Virus record (IMG/VR): IMGVR_UViG_3300037247_001878 | Location: 1 to 56,927 of that record | Origin: a virus | Reading direction: 5' to 3' (one strand) | DNA: 56,927 nt | Part shown: positions 6,012 to 56,927 of the stretch, one piece after another | How the letters are laid out: every line of letters begins with the position of its first letter | How positions within the stretch are numbered: position 1 is the stretch's first letter | Program-made: the position numbers and the translations under genes | The notes under the pieces: model-generated | Databases searched by the model: none | What the model was told of the DNA's origin: nothing | Seen by the model: the letters and a program-made list of their open reading frames with translations, nothing else

Positions 6012-6362
6012 ATGGCAGATTATATTGATTGGCCCTCTGGCGGGGCCACTTACCGTTACTGGTTTCTAGCGAATCCGTCAAGTGCTTCGGGCATCAAGGC
6101 GGTGGCAGGAAACTACATGTTTGTTCGGTTGGCCAACGATGGCTGGGTCCCAGTTTACATCGGGATCGCTGATGATCTACAAGACCGCATCCCCAGTCAC
6201 GAACGCTGGAAAGAGGCGGTTGCGTTGGGGGCCACAGAAGTTATGGCCCACACTCAAGCAAACCGGGCCAAGCGCGAAACGGAAGAAAAGGCTCTTATCA
6301 AGCATTGGAACCCGCCGCTAAACATCCAGCATCGCAGACGAGCAAGATTGCTCGCCGGTTAG
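6012..6362 (+). CDS. GIY-YIG nuclease-fold protein
   Basis: 116 residues. The two family strands read GNYMFVRL (33-40, with GNY in place of GIY) and VPVYIGIADD (47-56). Arg59 sits where the catalytic Arg belongs (DRIPSH), a Glu at 89-92 fits the metal-binding Glu, and NPPLN (100-104) matches the terminal Asn box. The ATG is preceded by a strong AAGGAGATT site. These proteins nick or cut DNA; the small stand-alone ones are mostly uncharacterised. In this transposon it could aid target or end processing, or act as a selfish nuclease. Activity is plausible but unproven because the first motif is altered. Confidence 0.75.
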   Translation: MADYIDWPSGGATYRYWFLANPSSASGIKAVAGNYMFVRLANDGWVPVYIGIADDLQDRIPSHERWKEAVALGATEVMAHTQANRAKRETEEKALIKHWNPPLNIQHRRRARLLAG

Positions 6363-6534: not shown

Positions 6535-6623
6535 GGGGGTGTGGTGGAATTGGTAGACACGGGTGATTTGTAATCTCCTGGGGTTGATCCCCCGTGCAGG
6601 TTCGAGTCCTGTCACCCCTACCA
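6535..6623 (+). tRNA. Class II tRNA with leucine-type body and UGU anticodon
   Basis: 89 nt including encoded CCA. The acceptor GGGGGTG pairs with CACCCCT (G1-T72 wobble); the discriminator is A73. The D arm GTG/CAC carries the AATTGGTAGA loop typical of bacterial tRNA-Leu. The anticodon stem GGTGA/TCTCC has one T-T mismatch. Loop TTTGTAA places TGT at 34-36 (reading ACA, Thr). The variable arm is GGGG-TTGAT-CCCC, and the T arm is GCAGG-TTCGAGT-CCTGT. LeuRS in bacteria relies on A73 and the body rather than the anticodon, so mischarging with leucine is conceivable. A promoter sits directly upstream. It may be a true mis-anticodoned tRNA or a non-decoding tRNA-like RNA. Confidence 0.82.
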
Positions 6624-7095: not shown

Positions 7096-7177
7096 ATCAC
7101 CATATTCGATATATAAGCCCTTGAATTCGAGATACAAGATCACCATATCTGATGGTAGACACCCCGGATATGGTGAT
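7096..7177. promoter_or_regulatory. Operator array ATCACCATAT (three copies) at the transposase promoter
   Basis: ATCACCATAT occurs at 7096-7105 and 7139-7148 and, inverted, at 7168-7177. A promoter TTGAAT (7121-7126), 17 bases, CATATC overlaps the second copy, and the third copy lies just before the transposase ATG. The array fits autoregulation of transposition by the divergently encoded DUF6471-like protein. Confidence 0.6.
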
Positions 7178-7181
7178 AAAA

Positions 7182-8147
7182 ATGACCCAGCACTTCCTAC
7201 TTTCCGCCCAAGCTCGGACCCTCAGCCTGGCCAAGGTCATGCGGCTGTCCGACCGAGAGGCTTACCAGACGTTCGCGCGCATCCGCTGGGCTCAGAACGA
7301 CGGCGAGCCCTTTTGCCCACGCTGCGGCTGCGTAGCGGTCTACACGTACCGCTCACGGCCTATCTACAAGTGCCAGGGCTGCGAAAGCCAGTTCTCGATC
7401 ACCACGGATACGATCTTCGCCAGTCGCAAGCTGCCGATCCGCGATTTGCTGGCCGCCATCGCGATCTTCGTGAACGGGGCCAAGGGCATTTCGGCGCTGC
7501 AATTGAGCCGTGACCTGGACTGCCAGTACAAGACGGCTTTCGTCCTGGCTCACAAGTTGCGCGAAGCCATGGGCGCCGAAATGAAGGGCCGCAAGCTGTC
7601 CGGCCATGTCGAAGTCGATGGCGCGTACTTCGGCGGCTATGTGCGACCCGAAAACCGCAAGGAGGACCGCGTAGATCGCCGTTTGTCCGAGCATCGTTCC
7701 GGCAAGCGCCGGGTCGTTATCATCATGCGCGAGCGTGGCGGTAAGTCCTTTCCGTTCGTTTGCCAGACAGAAGATCAGTCCGTACCCGTGATCCGCGCGC
7801 GCGTCCTGTCGGGCACCACGGTTTATGCCGACGAGTCCTCAAGCTGGGATGCGCTACACGCCAAGTACGACATGCACCGCGTCAATCACTCGATCATGTT
7901 CCAGGACGAAGGCAAGGCCGATACCAATCAGGCCGAAAGCTACTTCTCCCGTCTGCGTCGCGCGGAGATTGGCACACACCACCACATTAGCGGGCGGTAT
8001 CTGCACTCCTACGCGAACGAAATGGCTTGGCGTGAAGATCACCGCCGCAAGCCGAACGGAACGCAGTATCTCCTAGTCGCCGCTGCCGCTCTTGGCCATC
8101 CGGTGTCGCGGGAATGGAAAGGCTATTGGCAGCGGAGCGTGAACTAG
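7182..8147 (+). CDS. IS1595-family (ISXO2-like) DDE transposase
   Basis: 321 residues from ATG 7182; the typical family opening MTQHFLLSAQARTLSL fits this start better than the ATG at 7152. A zinc ribbon has Cys45/Cys48 and Cys64/Cys67. The ISXO2-type catalytic domain follows, with Asp146 (VEVDGAYFGG), Asp217 (VYADESSSWD) and the Asn249/Glu252 block (TNQAESYFSRLRR), then GTHHHIS. It cuts and pastes the element by recognising the 24-bp ends. All key residues are present and the element is complete, so it may still be mobile. The ribosome site is weak, as is usual for transposases. Confidence 0.93.
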   Translation: MTQHFLLSAQARTLSLAKVMRLSDREAYQTFARIRWAQNDGEPFCPRCGCVAVYTYRSRPIYKCQGCESQFSITTDTIFASRKLPIRDLLAAIAIFVNGAKGISALQLSRDLDCQYKTAFVLAHKLREAMGAEMKGRKLSGHVEVDGAYFGGYVRPENRKEDRVDRRLSEHRSGKRRVVIIMRERGGKSFPFVCQTEDQSVPVIRARVLSGTTVYADESSSWDALHAKYDMHRVNHSIMFQDEGKADTNQAESYFSRLRRAEIGTHHHISGRYLHSYANEMAWREDHRRKPNGTQYLLVAAAALGHPVSREWKGYWQRSVN

Positions 8148-46063: not shown

Positions 46064-46112
46064 AACGCGGGGCATTTCAGGTACTCGCCTCTGGGCGCTC
46101 GGCCGTTCCGCT

Positions 46113-46694
46113 CTAATCCTCTATCAGATACGGTTGGTCGTAGTTGCCGCGCCGTCTTGACCGCTCGAGCAATTTCGCCTGAATTTCGGTCACGTCCAAC
46201 GTCGGCATCATTGACTCGATTTTGGGCAGGCTGTTCAGAAACTCGATAGCGGCCGCAGAATTGAGGCCATTGGCGATCACCTCGGTCTGTGCGCGGACGC
46301 TTTCGGCTTCGATTTGCACCCGCGCGACCTTCTCCAACGTGTCGATTTCCGCTTTAGCCACACGCCGGAGTTCCTCCCGGCGTTGTCGATATTCGTTCTC
46401 GCCGCGCCGCGCCCAAGAGAAGTTGATCTTCGGTTGGAACTCCTTGGGTATGCCGAGTTTCTCGGCCTCGGCCTCTATTTCTTCGTTGGCCTTCTTTGCA
46501 GCCGCTATTGCCGCGTCGCTCGCCGCCTTCCAGACATCGTTCGTGGCGAAGTCGTGAACCGCAGAAATCTTTTGCTCGAATTCCGCAAGCATAGCGGTTG
46601 ACCGCTGATCGGCGGCGGTTTTGCAGACCCTTTCGCGCTGCTTGATGAGTCGGATGAGGTCGTCTCGCTCGCCTTTTGTCATTTGGCCTTGCAT
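46113..46694 (-). CDS. Hypothetical coiled-coil protein
   Basis: 193 residues, almost entirely helical with Glu/Lys/Arg-rich heptads (about 60-155). It overlaps the MT-A70-like gene in a TGATG junction; an internal ATG at 46682 may be used. No known domain. The neighbourhood suggests DNA metabolism or modification support. Confidence 0.6.
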   Translation of the reverse strand: MQGQMTKGERDDLIRLIKQRERVCKTAADQRSTAMLAEFEQKISAVHDFATNDVWKAASDAAIAAAKKANEEIEAEAEKLGIPKEFQPKINFSWARRGENEYRQRREELRRVAKAEIDTLEKVARVQIEAESVRAQTEVIANGLNSAAAIEFLNSLPKIESMMPTLDVTEIQAKLLERSRRRGNYDQPYLIED

Positions 46695-49475: not shown

Positions 49476-49691
49476 TCAGGTCTGACCTATGGACGGGCAC
49501 CTTCCCACCTCACCGCCAAAATGCTCCCGCAGCGCCCGCAGGCAGGCCATCAACTCGGGCCGGTTCCTTGTGGCGCCGGAGATATGTTCTTCGTAAATTT
49601 GGGCCCGTTCGACGCCGTGTTTTTTGAGGGCGTCCCGCTGTAGATTGAGGTTCTGGTCTTCGGTCGAGACCCGTGCATATCCGATCAGCAT
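49476..49691 (-). pseudogene. Truncated serine resolvase (N-terminal fragment)
   Basis: About 70 residues starting MLIGYARVSTEDQNLNLQRD, the classic serine recombinase opening with the nucleophile Ser of ARVS. The frame runs through QIYEEHISGATRNRPELMA and then departs from the family (REHFGGEVGRC) and stops, lacking the rest of the catalytic domain and the HTH. Full resolvases have 180 or more residues. Most likely a relic of an integrated element or a decayed module. Confidence 0.7.
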
Positions 49692-49864: not shown

Positions 49865-50422
49865 TTACTTTTCAGGTGCCGTGGTGGGCGCGTCGGTGCT
49901 GCAGTTGGGGGACCCATTGACGTTGGCCGCCGGAAGCTCGACGTAGGCGCCTGCAAGCCCGCTACGTGCGAGATGCCAAGCATCATCGGCCCCATAGGCG
50001 ACCAGCACGGAAGGCGCCCCAGCGTTGGCCGCAGCGCGCTCGCCATTCTGCCGGTGGAAATACAGGCGGCCCTCAAAGAACAGGGCGCCGCGCGCCGCAG
50101 TCGCGCGCCAGACGGTCTCCCAGAACCACCGGGTTTCGGTCCGGGCGAAGGTGAGTGCGGTTCCCTGGCCGTGTTTCGCGAGGCGCCGGAGCCATTTCAC
50201 GGCCTCGCGCCCATAAGGCGGGTTGAGCCAGACGCGGCCGGCCCATGGTTGGGATAAGCCGTCGTCGGCCGGGGTGTAGTGTCGCGCCGCCATGTTCCAA
50301 GGCCGATCAGCAGGCGCGCAGGGATCGAGGTCGAAATGCCCCAAAGCAGCCAGGATCTCGGGCGGCGTAAGCCAAACGTCTGAGATCATTTTTGCGCTTT
50401 GATGTGAGCCCATAGAAGCCAT
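49865..50422 (-). CDS. Phage adenine-N6 DNA methyltransferase (pfam05869-like)
   Basis: 185 residues from ATG 50422, which sits in a TGAAATG junction. The family signature is clear: WLTPPEILAALGHFDLDPCA, DDGLSQPWAGRVWLNPPYG with NPPY (67-70), and LTFARTETRWFWE. This is the small Dam-like enzyme common in temperate phages, adding N6-methyladenine to protect phage DNA or tune gene expression. Target sequence unknown. Confidence 0.88.
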   Translation of the reverse strand: MASMGSHQSAKMISDVWLTPPEILAALGHFDLDPCAPADRPWNMAARHYTPADDGLSQPWAGRVWLNPPYGREAVKWLRRLAKHGQGTALTFARTETRWFWETVWRATAARGALFFEGRLYFHRQNGERAAANAGAPSVLVAYGADDAWHLARSGLAGAYVELPAANVNGSPNCSTDAPTTAPEK

Positions 50423-50423
50423 T

Positions 50424-50744
50424 TCAGCGCGACTCCGAATCTGCCTCAAAACGGGACGTGTCCTTACGGAAGGCGTCGAAGTGTAATTCCACGTCGTGTT
50501 TCAGGTCGTTAAAGTGGTCTGAGGTATTTCCGTAGGAGATCAGCAGCCCGTGCGCATCTGCTAGGGCCTGCTTGAGCCGCTCGACCTCGGTGACTTTCTC
50601 GTCGGTCAGGCACCGCCAATAGTCAGCATCCCCCCAGCAATCCTCGCAATACGGCCCCCAATCGTTGTCGGTGTAGAGACTGTCGTCGCCACGTCCAGCT
50701 CGCCCGGTAGTGCCTTCGCACTGGCAACAGATTTCAAGGCTCAT
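50424..50744 (-). CDS. Small Cys-rich protein
   Basis: 106 residues. Two Cys pairs (CCQCEG near 6-11 and CEDC near 33-36) suggest a zinc ribbon, followed by a helix (VTEVERLKQALADAHGLLIS). The C terminus (TSRFEADSESR) belongs to the recurrent tail motif of this gene cluster. Possibly DNA- or protein-binding. Confidence 0.6.
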   Translation of the reverse strand: MSLEICCQCEGTTGRAGRGDDSLYTDNDWGPYCEDCWGDADYWRCLTDEKVTEVERLKQALADAHGLLISYGNTSDHFNDLKHDVELHFDAFRKDTSRFEADSESR

Positions 50745-51237
50745 TTGTCGTCTCCGGCGTTGTCGCTTTAGGGGACGCCCGCCGGGCGGCGGCGATCTCC
50801 TTGGGATCGGTGGGGCAGTCCGACCAATCAGACGCGATCCGCCGTAACGGGCTGGCTGCCTCGATCACCTCGTCAATCGCTTCGCGGAACTCGTCGCGCC
50901 AGCGATCATCGTCGTACTCGTATGAACCACGGCCCAGTCGCAGCCATTCCCGGCGCCTTATGGCCTCCATGATCGCGGTGAAAGTCTCGGCTACCTGCGA
51001 GCGGTCGCGCTCGTTCACGGCTTTCAACCGCTCGATCTCGTCACTTTGTCGCTTGATGATCTCGCCTCGCGCTCGCCTCGATTCCAAGAGTTCATCAAGG
51101 GTGACGCTGTAGGATCGGCACTCCATGGCAACTGGCATATCCCATCGGGAGCCCTCGCCGCCGACCTTCCTCAGTTGAACCCACCCATCGCGCCCCAGGA
51201 ATTGGATGCTGCGGATTTTGATCGAATTAGTGGTCAT
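50734..51237 (-). CDS. Hypothetical coiled-coil protein
   Basis: 167 residues. A small beta N terminus (SIQFLGRDGWVQLRKVGGEG) is followed by a coiled coil (about 50-85) and an acidic helical C-terminal half (FREAIDEVIEAASPLRRIAS). Stop/start overlaps on both sides. No known domain. Confidence 0.55.
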   Translation of the reverse strand: MTTNSIKIRSIQFLGRDGWVQLRKVGGEGSRWDMPVAMECRSYSVTLDELLESRRARGEIIKRQSDEIERLKAVNERDRSQVAETFTAIMEAIRRREWLRLGRGSYEYDDDRWRDEFREAIDEVIEAASPLRRIASDWSDCPTDPKEIAAARRASPKATTPETTNEP

Positions 51238-51404
51238 TCTGGCGATTCCCCAGATCGTTCGAAACGGGACTTTTCCGCTAATGCGGCTTTGTAAATGTCG
51301 ATAGCGATCCGGGCGATGGTTTCTTCAGAAAGACACCGCTCGGCCACAGCAGCCATATCAATTGTCTCGGCTACCGCTTTTTCTATCGCTTCTAAATCAG
51401 TCAT
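51234..51404 (-). CDS. Small hypothetical protein (56 residues)
   Basis: Acidic helical protein starting MTDLEAIEKAVAETIDMAAV and ending KSRFERSGESPE, one of the shared tail motifs of this cluster. The stop overlaps the next ATG (ATGA). Supported by the tight tiling even though it is short. Confidence 0.55.
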   Translation of the reverse strand: MTDLEAIEKAVAETIDMAAVAERCLSEETIARIAIDIYKAALAEKSRFERSGESPE

Positions 51405-51666
51405 GATCAGTCTCAATAAGGGACGCGGCTGCGCGGACCTCTTTAAGCTCTTGCTCGCCAATCTCACGCCAGCGATCGCCATGGGTCAGATAGAGCTTGA
51501 CCATCCAATGCAGAACGAACGCCTGCTCGGCCTCGGCTTTCCGTGGGATGTCCGCGCCGGCGGCCTGGAAGATATGAGCAATAGGGCCGCAAACGAAGTT
51601 TGGCCGGCCCAATATGTCTTGAAGCTCGGGCGTCATTTCGCTCGGGTAAACCATCGAATCGGTCAT
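51397..51666 (-). CDS. Hypothetical protein (89 residues)
   Basis: Starts MTDSMVYPSEMTPELQDILG, with a helical middle (HWMVKLYLTHGDRWREIGEQ) and the end ASLIETDHD. It overlaps the following gene. The middle resembles phage proteins with a short W/Y-rich helix pair. No function known. Confidence 0.55.
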   Translation of the reverse strand: MTDSMVYPSEMTPELQDILGRPNFVCGPIAHIFQAAGADIPRKAEAEQAFVLHWMVKLYLTHGDRWREIGEQELKEVRAAASLIETDHD

Positions 51667-51866
51667 TTCTTGATGCCTTCCGGATCTGGCTTACAAACCG
51701 ACGAACTGCGGCCCATGTCCGTCAGAGCCCGCCGCGCGAGCTGTCTTGCGGTCTCGCCGCCCAATGCCCGGCCATTGTCTTTTCGGCCACGGGCGATCTC
51801 GATCAGCGCTTCCTGAAAGCGGACGGCGGTCTTGAAGCAATCGCTCACATGCTCGTGCAGGCTCAT
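51663..51866 (-). CDS. Small hypothetical protein (67 residues)
   Basis: Helical, basic/acidic protein (MSLHEHVSDCFKTAVRFQEA; LGGETARQLARRALTDMGRS) ending PDPEGIKK. ATGA overlaps on both sides. Function unknown. Confidence 0.55.
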   Translation of the reverse strand: MSLHEHVSDCFKTAVRFQEALIEIARGRKDNGRALGGETARQLARRALTDMGRSSSVCKPDPEGIKK

Positions 51867-52075
51867 GGCTCGCCGGCCTCACAATCGGAGCCGAGCGCAC
51901 GGGCTACCGGCGCTAGAGCGGCGCTAATACGGTTCATACGTTCGGCATTGCAGGGCTGGCACCAGAGCTTCGACCACCACGTTCCTGCTGGTCTTCCACA
52001 GCTCTCGATACAGGCTATGCCAGAGTGATGCTTTGGGCCGTTATGCGGGTCGTGAGGGTCCTCGTAGCGCTTCAT
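51863..52075 (-). CDS. Small His/Cys-containing protein (70 residues)
   Basis: Opens MKRYEDPHDPHNGPKHHSGI and has three Cys in CIESCG and CQPCNAERMN, which could bind zinc, and ends GSDCEAGEP. The start overlaps the stop of the upstream 55-residue gene (ATGA). Function unknown. Confidence 0.55.
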   Translation of the reverse strand: MKRYEDPHDPHNGPKHHSGIACIESCGRPAGTWWSKLWCQPCNAERMNRISAALAPVARALGSDCEAGEP

Positions 52076-52239
52076 TTCGGCGGTTCCCCAGATCGTACGG
52101 AATCGGACCGGCGCGGCCGCCCGGTTATGGCTTCACCCAATTGCTTCCGGCACTCCTGCAACGTAATGGCCATCAAGCTGATATTGTCATCGTTCAACAT
52201 CTTCTGGATATCGTGGTCGAATCCGCTAGGTTCACCCAT
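52072..52239 (-). CDS. Small hypothetical protein (55 residues)
   Basis: MGEPSGFDHDIQKMLNDDNI at the start, a helix with LMAITLQECRKQLG and the tail RSDSVRSGEPPK. Coupled to both neighbours by overlapping start/stop codons and needed to close the tiling between 52075 and 52232. Very short but well supported by context. Confidence 0.55.
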   Translation of the reverse strand: MGEPSGFDHDIQKMLNDDNISLMAITLQECRKQLGEAITGRPRRSDSVRSGEPPK

Positions 52240-52492
52240 CGGTCGCTCCTGTCTTAGAATCGGACTTGACCGCCCCGCAGGCTCTCAGCAACTCAATGAT
52301 CGGATGGCCAGTTGTGGGGTGAATGCCTTTGGCTTGCTTTTCGCGAAGGGCGTCCATGGCGACCTCTTTCCCAAGCTCCCGCAGCCGTTCGATCTCAGCC
52401 TTTTCCATAAGCTCGAAATTCGTCCCCTCACACATCCGCTGAATTTCACCGGGGCTGCTACAGCGAGCCAATTTTTCCCAAATTGTCATCAT
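52232..52492 (-). CDS. Small helical protein (86 residues)
   Basis: MMTIWEKLARCSSPGEIQRM at the start, then acidic helices (LMEKAEIERLRELGKEVAMD) and the tail KSDSKTGATDG, a divergent form of the shared end. Function unknown. Confidence 0.55.
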   Translation of the reverse strand: MMTIWEKLARCSSPGEIQRMCEGTNFELMEKAEIERLRELGKEVAMDALREKQAKGIHPTTGHPIIELLRACGAVKSDSKTGATDG

Positions 52493-52776
52493 TTCGGCAC
52501 CTCCGGGATTCGTTCGTTAAGGGACCCGCGCGCCGTCGCTAGCCCCGCGCGCCGGACCTCGGCGCGGTAGCGCAAAACCAGCAGCCGCAGGGCGCCGTAG
52601 TCGAGATTCCCGTGGACGAAGTGCTGCACCGCCTCGAGCACGCGGTCGATGGCCTGGATCAGGGCCTTGTCCCCGTGCGGCGGATCCTGGGTGTCGGGTC
52701 CGGGGTTGACATGCGGGCGCCGCCGCGGCGGCTGCAGGTCGGTCTCGTCGAGCGTCCGATCCGGCGGCCGGCTCAT
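52489..52776 (-). CDS. Small hypothetical protein (95 residues)
   Basis: Pro/Arg-rich first half, helical second half (ALIQAIDRVLEAVQHFVHGN; LRLLVLRYRAEVRRAGLATA) ending GSLNERIPEVPK. Overlaps the next gene by four bases. The helical part resembles small phage accessory proteins; no family recognised. Confidence 0.55.
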   Translation of the reverse strand: MSRPPDRTLDETDLQPPRRRPHVNPGPDTQDPPHGDKALIQAIDRVLEAVQHFVHGNLDYGALRLLVLRYRAEVRRAGLATARGSLNERIPEVPK

Positions 52777-52809: not shown

Positions 52810-53304
52810 TCAGGCATCGGACCTGGCCTGGGCCCTGCGCCGTGCGCGCGTCCGACTTAATTTCACGCGCACCGCATCGTGGCTCTTGCCGACGATGACC
52901 GCGAGCTGCCGGTCGGTCAGCTTCCCCTGGCCGCCCGAGCGGGCCAAGCGCAGGACCTCGATTTCGTGGTCTCGCCAATCGTCGCGCGGCGGCCGGAGCG
53001 GTCCTTTACGCTCCGGCCCGCCGCCGCCCAAGCCGGGGCGGGATGTTCCACGTGAAACTGTGTCATCGGGGTTCGGCCGTGCCCGCGGCATACCGGCGAA
53101 GCCGTAGTCCCAGCACAGCGCCAAGGCCTGGCTCACTGGGCCGCGGCAGATTGCCTTTAGCGCCCCCTCGGCGTCACAGACTCTATGGGGGTTGACCTGC
53201 TCCGGCTGGGCCAGATGCGCGCCCGCAAGCCGGCCCTGCACGACCGCCCAATAGGCCGGGTTGACCGAGGTGGCCGGGATCTGGTCGGGACCCGGATCAG
53301 GCAT
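52810..53304 (-). CDS. HTH protein of the early operon
   Basis: 164 residues from ATG 53304 (TGATG overlap). A Trp-containing N-terminal half precedes a Pro/Arg/Gly-rich linker. The C terminus (about 118-158) reads as a Myb/SANT- or HTH-like unit (DHEIEVLRLARSGGQGKLTD; AVIVGKSHDAVRVKLSRTR) and ends with a basic patch. Likely DNA-binding, possibly a regulator of leftward transcription. Confidence 0.6.
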   Translation of the reverse strand: MPDPGPDQIPATSVNPAYWAVVQGRLAGAHLAQPEQVNPHRVCDAEGALKAICRGPVSQALALCWDYGFAGMPRARPNPDDTVSRGTSRPGLGGGGPERKGPLRPPRDDWRDHEIEVLRLARSGGQGKLTDRQLAVIVGKSHDAVRVKLSRTRARRRAQARSDA

Positions 53305-56652: not shown

Positions 56653-56927
56653 ATGCCCGATTCCGAGTCCCGGCGCCGCCCGACCAAGGCGATCAAGGCG
56701 GCCGTGCTCAAGCGGCAGCGGCATCTCTGCAACGCCTGCGACCGGCCCTTCTCCGAATGCGGGCCGGTCGAATGGGATCACTATCAGGCCCTGAGCCTGG
56801 GCGGGAGCAACGGCCCGGGCAACTGGCAGGCCTTGGGTCGGCCGTGCCACAGAACCAAATCCGCGCGCGATCTCGGCATGAAGGCCAAGGCCGAGCGGAT
56901 TGCCCGCAAGCTGGCCGGGGCCTGGCC
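56653..56927 (+). CDS. HNH endonuclease, N-terminal part (continues at window start)
   Basis: Starts MPDSESRRRPTKAIKAAVLK after a GAGGACCCGCC leader. CNAC (26-29) is the first zinc pair. The HNH core follows: WDHYQALSLGG with the first His, GNWQAL with the Asn, and CHRTK. The reading frame runs off the end and continues in the same frame from base 177; bases 1-176 duplicate 56752-56927. The full protein is 138 residues. It is the first gene of the rightward early operon and is controlled by the repressor operators. Confidence 0.88.
   Translation, partial: MPDSESRRRPTKAIKAAVLKRQRHLCNACDRPFSECGPVEWDHYQALSLGGSNGPGNWQALGRPCHRTKSARDLGMKAKAERIARKLAGAW
56752..56927. repeat. Right copy of 176-bp direct terminal repeat
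   Basis: Repeats bases 1-176 with four mismatches, placing the circle junction inside the HNH gene. One mismatch changes an amino acid near the first catalytic His (Tyr here, Trp at the left end). Confidence 0.95.

Follow-up and report, generated by a model that had tools for sequence, protein, structure and literature searches.

Gene content of the array

The window is the whole 56,927-nt stretch of IMG/VR virus record IMGVR_UViG_3300037247_001878. It contains an array of genes on the minus strand, and the gene ends quoted here are low coordinates. The array comprises ORFs of 70 aa (51863..52075, whose body has a homologue in a Brevundimonas phage, in a gene adjoining DNA polymerase I), 89 aa (51397..51666), 56 aa (51234..51404), and 167 aa (50734..51237, with a conserved WLR..RGSY..DD...DWSDCPTD domain). 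It also has a DNA methyltransferase gene at 49865..50437 (phrog_111, E=3e-41), which is of the N-6-adenine type by its phage relatives. A serine recombinase remnant on the same strand (49521..49685) covers positions 2-62 of 145 of Pfam PF00239.

The window carries a 176-bp direct repeat of 97.7% identity at 1-176 and 56752-56927, which suggests a near-complete, circularly assembled genome. An IS1595-type transposase (7152-8147) and a tRNA gene (6535-6620) lie near each other. An Rfam search found only a tRNA, located elsewhere.

The 89-aa protein, used as query, identified a relative phage, G010 (IMG/VR 3300005253_000354), on a 52.5-kb contig (L042); coordinates of its array are given on L048. 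The two phages have backbone blocks of about 65-96% in common, and their cassettes are 75 to 96% identical. The G010 array (L048 4043-9538) is of a similar type, with many genes that differ from those of the window. It consists of a DUF5131 (Gp37/Gp68 family) gene, a PAPS reductase-like gene, a Dam methylase gene, and small ORFs, and nearly all of its genes carry an S-tail together with the core or a core variant. Upstream of the array, at L048 2003-2392, G010 has GC-rich imperfect tandem repeats of the GGCACGG/GGCTTGGC type.

G010 is the only close relative of the window phage found. When IMG/VR was scanned for exact matches to a long tail pattern, there were none, and a shorter pattern matched just G010 and three loci that do not resemble the window. 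Scans with the proteins at 53304, 53969, and 51863 returned no relatives. An array-flanking protein had two weak matches in a 385-genome sample (class of the Rhizobium locus).

Boundary elements

The array genes end in boundary elements, all on the minus strand. The first of the array is GTCCGATGCCTGA at 52810..52822, identified by its in-frame core. It is followed by the element beginning GTCCCTTAACGAACGAATCCCGGAGG at 52489..52525, which was recovered by the repeat search and the tail test, and the 80% homology of this gene to a G010 gene ends at 52527, adjoining the element. The elements beginning GTCCGATTCCGTACGATCTGGGGAACC (52072..52108) and GTCCCGTTTCGAACGATCTGGGGAA (51234..51270) were recovered in the same two ways. 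In-frame cores define the elements beginning GTCCGATTCTAAGACAGGAG at 52232..52265, CTCCGATTGTGAGGCC at 51863..51890, GTCCCCTAAAGCGAC at 50734..50776, and GTCCCGTTTTGAGGC at 50424..50457, the last of which encodes the tail SRFEADSESR. The element beginning GTCGGTTTGTAAGCC at 51663..51702 has the variant core TCGGTT and resembles the G010 tails TCCGTTTGTAAGAC and TCGGTTTGTGAGGC. The element GTCCCTTATTGAGACTGATCATGACTGA at 51397..51424 marks a junction where G010 carries one extra cassette. The terminal element of the array runs from GTCC to the stop of the adenine methyltransferase gene (49865..49913). The sequence-only reading, which described a recurrent end in seven genes, had thus left out those at 51397, 51663, 52810, and 49865.

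Genes 51234, 52072, and 52489 have about 37 nt up to the stop in common, as found by tail reading and repeat search. Identity to the 51234 tail is 81% for 52072 and 65% for 52489. The best tails have pair scores of 23 and 16, against a maximum of 16 in null sets of codon-resampled and body-derived tails, and the strong pairs have p at most 5e-5 versus codon-resampled tails. The similarity of the 50424 tail is weaker (p about 1e-3). In 50734, 51863, and 52232 the common part is limited to the start of the element, a Shine-Dalgarno (SD) sequence, and the overlapping next start. The proposal that all seven ends are alike over their final 30-40 nt therefore holds in full for 51234, 52072, and 52489, whose tails reach or exceed the maximum for random codon-matched ends, and in weaker form for 50424, but not for the other three. 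A joint motif test on ten consecutive tails, at widths of 20 and 30 nt, gave p<1/400. When the strongest three tails are removed, the rest have only a short piece around GTCC in common (p 0.03-0.16 by width).

The core motif

The array ends are better described by a short core than by a full motif of 30-40 nt. An in-frame core, (G/C)TC(C/G)(G/C)NT, lies 12-43 nt before the stop and is common to nearly all array junctions. It was sought in the last 48 nt of genes, in the phase in which a codon starts with TC. In the window 10/11 array genes have it, versus 3/74 other genes (Fisher p=1e-9), and in G010 9/14 array genes versus 3/68 others (p=1e-6); both p-values are optimistic, because the pattern was written after viewing these tails, those of G010 included. 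Within array gene bodies the core is present in 1/2419 codons, and in other related records at 12/713 gene ends. The SD and the overlapping start of the next gene sit 3' of the core, and this accounts for part of the similarity that had been noticed earlier. The 3' half of the proposed motif (GCCGAAATGA) does overlap the next start, as claimed, yet it is partly a mere SD with an overlapping start.

The elements have no RNA fold beyond that of shuffled sequence (mean z 0.15), and hairpin or anti-SD folding and attC-like folding were both rejected. Neither inverted half-sites around the core nor a conserved left flank was found.

Tails and protein families

The tails do not follow the protein families of the genes that carry them. 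The Brevundimonas phage homologues of the 70-aa protein at 51863 are 57% identical and stop before the tail, which they lack. The similarity of the G010 DUF5131 and Dam proteins to their counterparts in other phages stops where the S-tail begins, and for the 167-aa protein at 50734 every relative read carries a tail of its own. Most differences between the 51234 and 52072 tails, counted by eye, alter an amino acid, which indicates that the protein is not the thing kept. Conservation of the tail at the protein level is ruled out by the tail swaps. C-terminal tails in such arrays call for caution, as they fall outside the protein family.

Exchange events between the window phage and G010

G010 has a perfect 211-bp repeat at L048 6336-6546 and 7553-7763, with unrelated flanks. 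It runs from the TCCGTT within the tail of gene 6195-6362 to the TCCGTT that directly follows a 58-aa ORF, and the second copy is inside the tail of the 51234 homologue. The duplicated unit is 205 nt long and comprises a TCC core, a leader with SD, an ATG, and an ORF. Deleting one unit in silico restores an in-frame tail, KSVIAPARPEED, with a stop that overlaps the next ATG. The repeat could in principle be a product of assembly, since both genomes are IMG/VR contigs.

In G010 the homologues of 51397 and 51234 flank a gene, L048 7204-7425, that is absent from the window. At the 51397 junction the window matches G010 at 92/100 in the body on the left and at 86/100 in the leader and gene on the right, and the switch is at GTCC. 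The body of the 89-aa ORF is 95.5% identical to G010. The body of the 56-aa ORF (84% DNA identity) is common to both phages up to the GTCC of the 51234 element, and the tails beyond it differ.

A body swap is found at the terminal element. The methyltransferase body of the window and a short, unrelated ORF of G010 both continue, from GTCC on, into one common stretch of downstream DNA, which is 95% identical over 393 nt and 95-96% identical through the recombinase start. Upstream of this GTCC the identity is 51%, the chance level for a global alignment.

Two other boundaries, the 5' boundaries of 51397 and 52489, have their breakpoints at the start codon instead of the core, and the end of the 52489 body in G010 is shifted by about 40 nt. 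The core is thus the main breakpoint and not the only one. All of these events come from one genome pair, as only one close relative was found.

The earlier proposal that gene cassettes are shuffled at these sequences is supported: G010, the relative in which the check could be made, has different bodies bounded by the same sequence. Two details differ from that proposal. In the resolved events the junction is a core of 3-6 nt (TCC or TCCGTT) at the 5' edge of the common tail and not the whole 30-40 nt, and the moving part is the leader with its ORF, so that the tail goes with the downstream gene.

Cassette model and rival explanations

The region is very probably an array of exchangeable phage gene cassettes built as units of core, leader, and ORF. 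The core is present at nearly every junction in one phase, and the junctions of the duplication, the insertion or deletion, and the body swap fall in TCC. From these events we infer that the core acts as a general exchange site, and likewise the direction in which each event ran. A cassette would consist of a TCC core, a leader of 20-40 nt with its own SD, an ATG, and an ORF, and would extend up to the next core. The leader of one gene would double as the coding 3' end of the preceding gene, because the core is in frame just upstream of that gene's stop. For the same reason, insertion, loss, or duplication of a cassette at the core should keep the operon translationally coupled. The inserted cassette would carry its ribosome-binding site (RBS) along, and the upstream protein would receive a new C-terminal tail. 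This design would explain how overlapping phage genes continue to be translated after an exchange.

The tails might instead be signals for translational coupling (SD and hairpin) or a motif common to the protein C-termini, and have nothing to do with recombination. An SD and the overlapping next start do sit in the 3' part of the element, and the tails are all in one phase. This reading is very unlikely, however, given the RNA folding result and the amino acid changes between the 51234 and 52072 tails. Homologous bodies bear different tails, moreover, and body swaps have their junctions at GTCC.

Within the cassette model, the enzymology has two candidate accounts. They are sub-cases of that model, so the confidence placed in each adds up within it, and the leading one does not compete with the cassette structure. 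This leading account, to which we give an even chance, is short-homology or illegitimate recombination at gene ends, with the core spreading passively, since every inserted gene carries one, and selection keeping the in-frame products. Such recombination has been proposed for phage mosaicism (PMC3233612, PMC3029335), the start-codon boundaries of this array fit it, and two Polyangiaceae arrays, which have no core, exchange genes precisely where the genes end. It sits less easily with the coincidence of several junctions in TCC when TCC cores cover only about 1.3% of array positions, and a Pfam search found neither RecT nor ERF annealing proteins.

The other account is a dedicated site-specific recombinase, either a serine recombinase or a tyrosine integrase, that would cut the TCC core and move circular cassettes in the manner of an integron. 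All resolved core junctions lie within the same 3-6 nt, which speaks for such an enzyme. Immediately beyond the terminal element is a serine recombinase gene (G010 46108-46512, plus strand), and both phages encode a tyrosine integrase, with one tyrosine recombinase per phage. Known serine and tyrosine recombinase sites are unlike this core, which is short and has a left flank that is not conserved. A standard serine recombinase site is disfavoured by this flank and by the lack of inverted half-sites, and the serine recombinase is intact in G010 but truncated in the window phage. The RYYYAAC...GTTRRRY pair of attC sites is absent from the window array, with one isolated pair in G010. On balance a dedicated enzyme is somewhat unlikely. 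The serine recombinase gene is also embedded in the block that is 95-96% identical between the two phages.

It is rather doubtful that the array is an integron-like cassette system carried by phages and independent of attC, with a dedicated recombinase acting on a short core inside 3' coding ends. If it were, each capture event would bring a ready RBS and rewrite the C-terminus of the upstream protein.

Comparison with known systems

Within the limited open-licence literature searched, the closest known idea is the boundary-sequence model of phage mosaicism for HK620 and other lambdoid phages, as it is cited in passages of PMC3233612 and PMC3029335. Both have a short sequence at junctions where genes exchange. 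The array has a conserved short sequence at its gene junctions, and in G010 the same sequence flanks different genes. It differs from that model in the in-frame core at about ten consecutive junctions and in the perfect duplication of a single cassette. The lambda nin region is not the same thing, as its tails have little in common beyond SD and overlapping start (best score 11). The precise gain or swap of small accessory phage genes at boundaries is often explained by rare illegitimate recombination and selection. The repeated core here narrows the predicted breakpoint down to a few bases, the sequence captures the duplication of a single cassette, and the boundary-sequence model becomes directly testable.

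Within the same literature, the layout of the array is closest to that of integron gene cassettes with attC sites, clusters of which are also known from phages (PMC9892861), but the array does not pass the site tests. The likeness lies in head-to-tail units of one ORF, each with one recombination site, and a recombinase gene at one end. In contrast to integrons, the site here is part of the upstream gene's coding end. By a simple pattern test, the window array has no attC boxes, and the integron crossover at GTTRRRY (G/TT) was not found at the informative junctions, which switch within TCC, to the left of the variable G/C.

PeSLs are reportedly intergenic elements composed of a promoter and a stem-loop. 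The element described here is coding, carries an SD, and has no conserved fold (stem-loop test: none beyond chance). These mobile regulatory cassettes of T4-like phages (Arbiol 2010, Comeau 2014), as cited in a passage of PMC4503421, resemble the array in being short elements repeated between small accessory genes, where they promote modular shuffling.

Nearby genes of other related phages have 3' ends of 23-36 nt in common, with a sequence that differs per phage, as at L001 10294/10676, L028 10238/10927, and L009 1309/1807. The tail sharing in L001, L009, and G005 is real but involves other sequences, and these are not claimed as the same system; that in L009 is partly due to tandem paralogues. 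Tail sharing may be wider among phages than this array, and the process need not be the same. Three consecutive genes at L009 2844-3654 have alike N-termini (MTPEERKKLI), near-identical tails (ILASIPE), and different middles, and are tandem paralogues whose centres have diverged or been replaced. One Polyangiaceae MAG has two contigs, L013 and L014, that carry two related small-gene arrays without a common core, and the limits of their best homology block lie no more than a few bases from a gene start and stop.
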